Positions 11,123 to 12,953 of a DNA stretch of 64,000 nt are shown in pieces. Within the stretch, counting starts at the first letter, position 1. The number at the start of each line of letters is the position of its first letter. Under the pieces are notes generated by a model. That model saw only the letters and a list, made by a program, of their open reading frames with translations, had not been told where the DNA came from and did no database searches. The DNA is from Fimbriimonadaceae bacterium (lineage in GTDB: Bacteria; Armatimonadota; Fimbriimonadia; Fimbriimonadales; Fimbriimonadaceae), in NCBI GenBank assembly GCA_019187105.1, contig JABAQM010000001.1, positions 2,324,734 through 2,388,733 of the forward strand. The letters run 5' to 3'. The position numbers were made by a program, and so were the translations under genes.

Positions 11123-11482
11123 GTGAACCAAGTCGGCATCGAAGACCTTCAGGAAACCGCCCACGCCGCAAGCGACCACTTTTGCCCGGTAAATGCCGCG
11201 CTGGAAATCCTCAACCGCCGCTGGACCCTCCATATCCTCCGTGCCCTACTCTCTGGACATGGCCGCTTCAATGACCTCGGCCGCGTTACCGGCATCAATC
11301 CCCGCACCCTCTGCACGCGGTTGCGGGAGCTGGAGGCGGACGGGATCGTCGCCCGCAAGGTGGGCGAGCATGCCCTCGATGTGGAGTACTCCCTGACGCC
11401 GATGGGTTTGGAGCTCGGCAATCTACTGAGCGATCTGAGCGGCTGGGCGCGGACCTGGATTCAAGCCCCCTGCGTAGAATAA
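11123..11482 (+). CDS. HxlR-family transcriptional regulator
   Basis: Winged helix-turn-helix DNA-binding protein of 119 aa. It carries the HxlR hallmark: a Cys near the N-terminus in CPVNAALEIL, then NRRWTLHILRALLSG, the recognition helix in INPRTLCTRLRELEADGIV, and the wing VEYSLTPMGLEL. The GTG start has a GGAGGAG ribosome site 2-3 nt upstream (short spacing). A TATATAA stretch 14-20 bp upstream may be its -10. Some HxlR proteins sense electrophiles or oxidants through the conserved Cys. The regulated gene is not evident; the PafA-like gene follows by 4 nt and could be co-transcribed. Confidence 0.88.
   Translation: MNQVGIEDLQETAHAASDHFCPVNAALEILNRRWTLHILRALLSGHGRFNDLGRVTGINPRTLCTRLRELEADGIVARKVGEHALDVEYSLTPMGLELGNLLSDLSGWARTWIQAPCVE
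11475..11480 (+). promoter_or_regulatory. -10-like box 6 nt before PafA-like ATG
   Basis: TAGAAT ends 6 nt before ATG 11487. The box overlaps the HxlR stop codon, so the ligase-like gene could have its own leaderless transcript. Confidence 0.5.
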
Positions 11483-11486
11483 CAAC

Positions 11487-12953
11487 ATGAACCCGGGACC
11501 CGGCGACCGTATCATCGGGGTCGAGACCGAGTTTGGGTGCCTCGTCGCCGACGAGACGCTCGGTGCGCCGGAAGAAGCCGTTGCCGCGATCAAGGACTAC
11601 CTGTTCTACGAGCTGAAAGTCGGGGCGATCGACCTCCACTCCCGAGATGAGGTGTTCGAGCCCGCCCAGTCCGGAGGCTTTCTCATTAATGGAGCGCGCC
11701 TTTACATCGACGCGGTTGGCTCACACCTTGAATACGCAACTGCCGAAACCCGCAGCCTGAAGGATCTGGTCGCCAACGATCGCGCTGGACAGCGGCTGAT
11801 CGTCCAGGCGATTCGGGAACTCGACCTGCAAGACCAGATCTCGGTCTACAACAACAGCATCGATCACTTCGGCGGCCATACGTTCGGTTGCCACGAAAAC
11901 TATCTCGTGCGAATGGACGAGGACTTCTTCTCGGCACAAGTTCACTATTTGTACGGCTTCCTCATCACCCGCCAGATCTATGCCGGCGTTGGGAGGGTCG
12001 GTGGACACATCCTAACCAACGCCCTCATACGGCCGAGCTACCAGGAAGTCATGGAACACCCGATCGATTACATCTGGGTGAGCCAGGTTTACGGCGTGCT
12101 TCCAGACCCCGAGGTCGAATTCCAGCTCAGCCAGCGCGCCGACCATATCCTGAAAACCGTTGCGAGCCGCGTCCGCTTCAATCGTGCGCTCATCAATCCG
12201 AAGTGGGAGCATTACTATTCCCACGACGGCATGCAGCGGCTCCACCTGCTTTTTGGGGAATCCAACCAAAGCGAATATGCCTACGCGCTGAAGGCGGGAA
12301 CGACCTCGCTGGCCCTACGGCTGCTCGAAGACAACGCGCTCGACGAAACCTTCTTCGTTGCCCAGCCTCTCGAGTGCCTACGAAACATCAGCCGCGATGC
12401 CTCATACGCTTGGCCGGTGGTTATGCAGGATGGATCCACGGTAGGGGCGGTGGAGCTCCAGCGACGGTATCTGGCGCTTGCTGAGCGCTATCGCGGATCC
12501 AGCGAAGAGACCGATTGGGTGCTCAACGAGTGGGCCGGAACACTCGCCACCCTCGAGAAGGACCCGCTGTCTCTCGGCGATCGGCTCGATTGGGTGGCGA
12601 AGAAAAAGATAGTGGATGAATATCGCCGTGCGGAGGGTCTCTCAGCTCAGGACGACGCCCTTCATTCGGTTGACCTCGAGTACCACAACATCGACCCCGA
12701 TCGAAGCCTCTTCCATGCTCTCCAGGAAATGGGAGTAATGAAACGGTTCATAACCGACCTCGACATCTTGGAAGCGATGGCGGAGCCGCCGGTAAACACT
12801 CGTGCGAAGGGCCGAGCGCAGCGAGTCCAGCAGGTGCTGGCGCGCCGTTCCCGCGGTGTCTACGCCTTCGACTGGAGCGGGGTCGCCCTCGACCGCCACG
12901 GATACGAAGAGATGCCGGACCCTTACGAGACGTACGAGCTCGTCGGCCCCTAG
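11487..12953 (+). CDS. pafA: PafA/Dop-family Pup ligase-like protein
   Basis: Carboxylate-amine ligase fold of the Pup ligase (PafA)/deamidase (Dop) family, 488 aa. Conserved features are the ATP/Mg motif GVETEFG (residues 11-17), INGARLYID with the probable catalytic Asp75, SHLEYATAET, FGCHENYLV, QLSQRADHI, LHLLFGESN and the PafA-type C-terminal segment PPVNTRAKGRAQRVQ. The stretch between GVETEFG and NGARLY is short, without the long Dop loop, so it resembles PafA. One extra residue separates Asp75 from VGSH. PafA links Pup (or UBact in Gram-negatives) to lysines for proteasomal degradation. No Pup/UBact, proteasome or ARC/Mpa gene lies in the window, so its partner is unknown. Confidence 0.85.
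   Translation: MNPGPGDRIIGVETEFGCLVADETLGAPEEAVAAIKDYLFYELKVGAIDLHSRDEVFEPAQSGGFLINGARLYIDAVGSHLEYATAETRSLKDLVANDRAGQRLIVQAIRELDLQDQISVYNNSIDHFGGHTFGCHENYLVRMDEDFFSAQVHYLYGFLITRQIYAGVGRVGGHILTNALIRPSYQEVMEHPIDYIWVSQVYGVLPDPEVEFQLSQRADHILKTVASRVRFNRALINPKWEHYYSHDGMQRLHLLFGESNQSEYAYALKAGTTSLALRLLEDNALDETFFVAQPLECLRNISRDASYAWPVVMQDGSTVGAVELQRRYLALAERYRGSSEETDWVLNEWAGTLATLEKDPLSLGDRLDWVAKKKIVDEYRRAEGLSAQDDALHSVDLEYHNIDPDRSLFHALQEMGVMKRFITDLDILEAMAEPPVNTRAKGRAQRVQQVLARRSRGVYAFDWSGVALDRHGYEEMPDPYETYELVGP

Follow-up and report, generated by a model that had tools for sequence, protein, structure and literature searches.

The window analysed here, the whole stretch of 64 kb (C1:2324734-2388733), encodes a protein of the Pup ligase family, and the question raised by this locus is which system the protein serves. 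The gene, pafA (11487..12953, + strand), has an ATG start and an intact frame, and encodes a predicted Pup/UBact ligase of 488 amino acids. The original prediction described it as an orphan that may serve a remote proteasome locus or be a second ligase working with a different carrier or substrate. In agreement with the first part of that description, genome-wide profile searches with PF03136, PF20513, PF00227, and PF16450 placed no further Pup ligase within the window span, and neither UBact nor a 20S subunit nor ARC. The gene is very probably the single, ordinary PafA of a complete UBact-proteasome system, the remaining genes of which are located elsewhere on the same contig.

PF03136 (Pup_ligase) spans the window PafA over its full length (positions 1-440 of 441) and scores 411.6 bits, far above the cut-off of 25. 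The ATP/Mg motif GxExE (G11-V-E13-T-E15; 11517..11531, + strand), within GVETEFG, the catalytic Asp75 (11709..11711, + strand), and the HENYL motif of residues 136-140 (11892..11906, + strand) were all present as originally noted. G11, E13, E15, D75, H136, E137, N138, and Y139 were invariant in an alignment of 15 PafAs from Armatimonadota, Nitrospira, and one Chloroflexota MAG. Asp75 aligns with Asp64 of Corynebacterium glutamicum PafA, and this position is occupied by D in 58 of the 58 armatimonad PafAs, in the PDB PafA, and in all aligned Dops. The Dop-loop of about 37-40 amino acids was not found in the window PafA, as the original prediction had also stated; every aligned PafA shows a gap where Dops carry the loop.

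Beside the catalytic Asp, the window PafA aligns as D75-A-V77-G78-S79-H, followed later by EYATA. Residues near the catalytic Asp are known to split ligases from depupylases, PafA having V, G, and S and, further on, A, T, and A (PMC7947786, Table 1), and all of these residues in the window protein are of the PafA kind. The Dop signature D-H-x-H-P-E-Y and the Dop-loop are absent from it, and both are present in the other family member of this genome (L003:9341-10810). The window PafA falls below the NCBIfam equivalog cut-off of TIGR03686 (286.1 bits, with 551.3 needed). This model appears to be tuned to actinobacterial sequences, because the Dop and the 20S subunits of the genome also miss their cut-offs. 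The NCBIfam margin between PafA and Dop is only 12 bits (286 v 274 bits), which is too weak to call a PafA; therefore, the tree, the residues, and other evidence were used.

The tree comprised 65 rows, including the window PafA, 38 Fimbriimonadales PafAs, Nitrospira and Chloroflexota PafAs, and the Dops from the same loci; PafA sampling outside Armatimonadota consisted of one Nitrospira, one Chloroflexota, and one Nonomuraea sequence, and PDB sequences. The window protein nests inside the 38 Fimbriimonadales PafAs (SH-aLRT 99), which are joined by the Nitrospira and Chloroflexota PafAs (SH-aLRT 100), and the same-locus Dops are found on the opposite side. In the quick tree built without constraint, the fragment of C. 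glutamicum PafA, which has a long branch, was misplaced. This is regarded as a search artefact, because a constraint holding all PafA rows together raised the likelihood (lnL +32.6, p-AU 0.86). The match on a Tsukamurella record (L151) proved to be a Dop, and a scan of viral contigs with the C. glutamicum PafA as query revealed no relative.

The AlphaFold2 model of the window PafA (mean pLDDT 86, pTM 0.90) fits crystal structures of PafA as well as those of Dop, in both cases along most of the chain (Foldseek TM to query 0.68-0.78, Z 38-44). The overall fold thus does not discriminate between both enzymes and was left out of the PafA call. A helix was modelled at residues 216-231, as in PafA and unlike Dop, although with modest confidence (pLDDT 59-68 for residues 221-250). 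A hydrolase or deamidase of the Dop kind, and not a ligase, would be compatible with the PDB sequence matches, which are narrowly led by a Dop (223 v 187 bits), and with the non-discriminating fold comparison, in which Dop structures have the highest Z (44.1 v 42.4) and rows 1-6 are nearly tied. Such an enzyme is nevertheless very unlikely, since the Dop-loop is missing, the D-(A)-V-G-S-H and EYATA residues are of PafA type, the alpha-loop helix is predicted by the model, the tree groups the protein with PafAs, and a separate Dop with a Dop-type signature adjoins UBact. Tree, residues, and absence of the Dop-loop support the window protein as a putative PafA-type ligase, not a Dop, in agreement with the original prediction.

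The genome has a size of 3.307 Mb and is rated 99.6% complete. The genome-wide search with PF03136 revealed exactly two Pup_ligase genes, the window pafA and a gene at C1:1420352 (L003:9341-10810, 1.42 Mb). The latter corresponds to Dop, with 356 bits for TIGR03688 and 273 bits for TIGR03686, the signature D-H-G-H-P-E-Y, and the Dop-loop. Directly after dop, the genome encodes a UBact of 70 amino acids ending in RSGQ (L003:10780-10992), above the cut-offs of both PF20513 (70.5 bits) and NF033388 (72.4 bits), which is followed by the 20S beta subunit prcB (TIGR03690 match). The 20S alpha subunit prcA (TIGR03691 match) is located at C1:502 kb (0.50 Mb). ARC, an ATPase in which the AAA domain and both OB domains were matched, is encoded at C1:961 kb (0.96 Mb; L007:1114-2772). 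UBact, both 20S subunits, ARC, Dop, and PafA are therefore all encoded on one contig, as six single-copy genes at four places.

A complete UBact-proteasome set that lacks its own pafA is thus present on the contig of the window, the very finding that the original prediction had named as one that would make the gene an ordinary ligase. The remote proteasome locus which it proposed exists, very probably with the window gene as its ordinary ligase. The term orphan is wrong at genome scale; pafA looked orphan because a view of 64 kb cannot reach the partners at 1.42, 0.50, and 0.96 Mb. A second, specialised ligase that acts apart from the remote locus and uses a different carrier or different substrates would agree with a pafA that is unlinked to ubact and with an alpha-loop unlike that of actinobacterial PafA. 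However, the genome possesses one Dop, one UBact, and no other PafA, and the same PafA type, with its alpha-loop and extra residue, is found inside complete proteasome operons of other Armatimonadota, which makes such a role highly improbable.

The genome also encodes HslV (L004:1483-2022, C1:3023335, 3.02 Mb; NF003964 246 bits), so that a 20S proteasome and the HslV protease coexist. Seventy-seven distinct UBact termini from relatives and the genome itself correspond to RSGE (41), RSGQ (35), and RTGE (1), the own copy ending in Gln; the need for deamidation by Dop therefore varies within the phylum. ARC of Armatimonadota (L121-L149, L152-L199) carries a short hydrophobic pair at its C-terminus, in most cases as NII or TVI, and as PII in the own copy. 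Nitrospira ARC has the tail QII, whereas actinobacterial ARC has GQYL (Tsukamurella, L151). The armatimonad tails lack GQYL, and the proteasome-docking tail is therefore of another type.

Among 61 genomes, the own one and relatives, the Pup ligase family was found in 59, UBact in 54, and ARC in 58. In the family of the window, pafA never adjoins dop in the genomes listed, and the distance between both genes in single-contig genomes is 0.92 Mb in the own genome, 1.85 Mb in G007, 1.0 Mb in G010 and in G018, and 1.2 Mb in G032. The genes dop, ubact, and prcB stay joined in this family, and prcA is also located elsewhere. Two sister families possess dop-ubact-prcB-prcA-pafA in one cluster (f2 loci L101-L103 and f3 locus L104), while in other f2 genomes (G041, G049) pafA has moved away. 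In the rest of Armatimonadota, dop-ubact-prcB-prcA-pafA were found in this order in 18 out of 18 fetched clusters (L182-L199), which were picked for closely spaced dop and pafA, with about 15 other draft genomes having both genes on different contigs. ARC lies upstream in 17 of the 18 clusters, and none was seen within the fetched stretch of L193. All six genes also occur in this order at locus L049 of Nitrospira. Isolation of pafA would thus be a lineage-specific scattering of genes, with a stepwise break-up of the operon as the simplest reading: an ancestral operon ARC-dop-ubact-prcB-prcA-pafA would have been scattered in the family of the window, probably Fimbriimonadaceae, leaving pafA alone.

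Among the neighbours compared, no gene near the window pafA recurs beside pafA in relatives; therefore, its present place looks arbitrary, and guilt by association gives nothing. An HxlR-family regulator (11123..11482, + strand; PF01638 69.9 bits) ends four bases before the start codon of pafA, and both genes are possibly co-transcribed. An HxlR-type regulator was not found near pafA in relatives. A record titled 'Methanoregulaceae archaeon isolate SJ84' (JADZEW010000001.1, L044) contains an armatimonad pafA 65% identical to that of the window, and its title seems to be wrong.

Two genomes of 1.5 Mb from the family of the window (G029 and G227) lack the Pup ligase family, and G029 also lacks UBact and ARC, which suggests that the whole system was lost on genome reduction. 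These two genomes, together with the position of pafA outside the operon, could be taken as signs that the window gene is a decaying leftover, uncoupled from the proteasome. Against this, its frame is intact, the protein is 57-72% identical to the PafAs across the family, with invariant catalytic residues, and nearly every UBact-bearing relative has PafA. Decay is therefore scarcely credible, and an ordinary ligase with a displaced gene remains the preferred reading.

The original prediction had pointed to an extra residue after Asp75. This residue, Ala76 (11712..11714, + strand), is indeed present in comparison with actinobacterial PafA, which has D-V-G-S-H. However, it is not special to the window copy: the position is filled in 58 out of 58 armatimonad PafAs (A in 54), which have D-x-V-G-[SD]-H, operonic copies included. 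The insertion is a phylum-wide trait, common to all armatimonad PafAs compared, and was ruled out as the mark of a special enzyme.

Another region that differs from actinobacterial PafA is the alpha-loop, residues 216-241 (QRADHILKTVASRVRFNRALINPKWE; 12132..12209, + strand). The consensus in Armatimonadota is ...[AS]SRVRFNRA[LIM][IV]NPKW[ED]..., in which the NTRD motif is replaced by NPKW. In the numbering of the window, P238 is found in 58 of 58 armatimonad PafAs, K239 in 57, W240 in 53, R228 in 56, and R230 in 58. In C. glutamicum numbering, this corresponds to T206 to P (58/58), R207 to K (57/58), D208 to W (53/58), A196 to R (56/58), and T198 to R (58/58). R137 and R218 of C. glutamicum are also replaced in Armatimonadota, the former mostly by M, A, or I and the latter mostly by H, T, or Q.

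In C. glutamicum PafA, R207 forms together with R137 and R218 the 'site 2' that guides substrates, and R207A abolished the pupylation of FabD and the in vivo pupylome, while phospho-Pup was still formed (PMC10465538). The same arginine is essential in Mycobacterium smegmatis (R193; PMC7947786). It is not kept in the window PafA, which has Lys239, so that activity of this enzyme would not be guaranteed. The arginine is a feature of characterised actinobacterial PafAs and is not known to define the family. Both the arginine and D-E-P are retained in the Dop of the window genome, which keeps NTRD, and in the PafAs from Nitrospira and Chloroflexota. The Chloroflexota PafA possesses R-V-R-F as in Armatimonadota, yet keeps N-L-R-D, and therefore the two changes of the alpha-loop are separable.

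Judged from the alignments, the chemistry would be kept and the recognition rim changed, most likely with a new basic patch of R228/R230 and K239, which suggests a phylum-specific way of choosing substrates. It is conceivable, and we propose it tentatively, that Armatimonadota rebuilt the substrate-recognition rim of PafA, exchanging the R137/R207/R218 cluster for P-K-W and R228/R230 on the helix, with a different target-picking surface and probably a different rule. A plain conservative swap of Arg for Lys at R207, with unchanged function, is also possible. No paper describing the armatimonad alpha-loop change was found in the open-access collection searched, which covers few subscription papers and not the first UBact reports.

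Which genes are present, where they are located, and that the window protein is a PafA are results of the tools used, and we infer the biochemical steps from the actinobacterial pathway. By homology, Dop would convert the encoded C-terminal Gln of UBact to Glu, PafA would activate the C-terminal residue with ATP and attach UBact to lysine side chains of its targets, the ARC ATPase would unfold the tagged proteins into the 20S core, and Dop would recycle the tag. Within this scheme, the rebuilt alpha-loop would most likely alter target recognition, not chemistry. These results remove a false lead to an orphan ligase, and show how a bacterial ubiquitin-like system can remain complete although its operon has been broken up. 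The altered alpha-loop is a modest lead; it is a phylum-wide rewrite of the only part of PafA with a demonstrated role in substrate recognition, and offers a natural comparison for how a single ligase selects many targets.

Similar to actinobacterial PafA (C. glutamicum, PDB 4BJR/4B0T; M. smegmatis), the window PafA possesses the common fold, GxExE, the catalytic Asp with its V-G-S-H and A-T-A neighbours, HENYL, and a predicted helical alpha-loop, and lacks the Dop-loop. It differs by an identity of about 30%, by the residue added after the Asp, by Lys, Pro, and Trp in place of R207, T206, and D208, by the loss of R137 and R218, by the presumed use of UBact instead of Pup, and by a gene unlinked from the rest. 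With Dop (A. cellulolyticus 4B0R and the copy of the genome) it has the fold and the catalytic Asp in common, whereas the Dop-loop, D-H-x-H-P-E-Y, and NTRDEPHAD are present in Dop and absent from the window protein. The UBact-proteasome loci of Nitrospira (L049) and of the operonic Armatimonadota comprise the same six components, and the latter also the same PafA type; the Nitrospira PafA, unlike that of the window, keeps NTRDEP and lacks the V-G insertion. In contrast to these loci, the six genes of the window genome are split over four chromosomal places.
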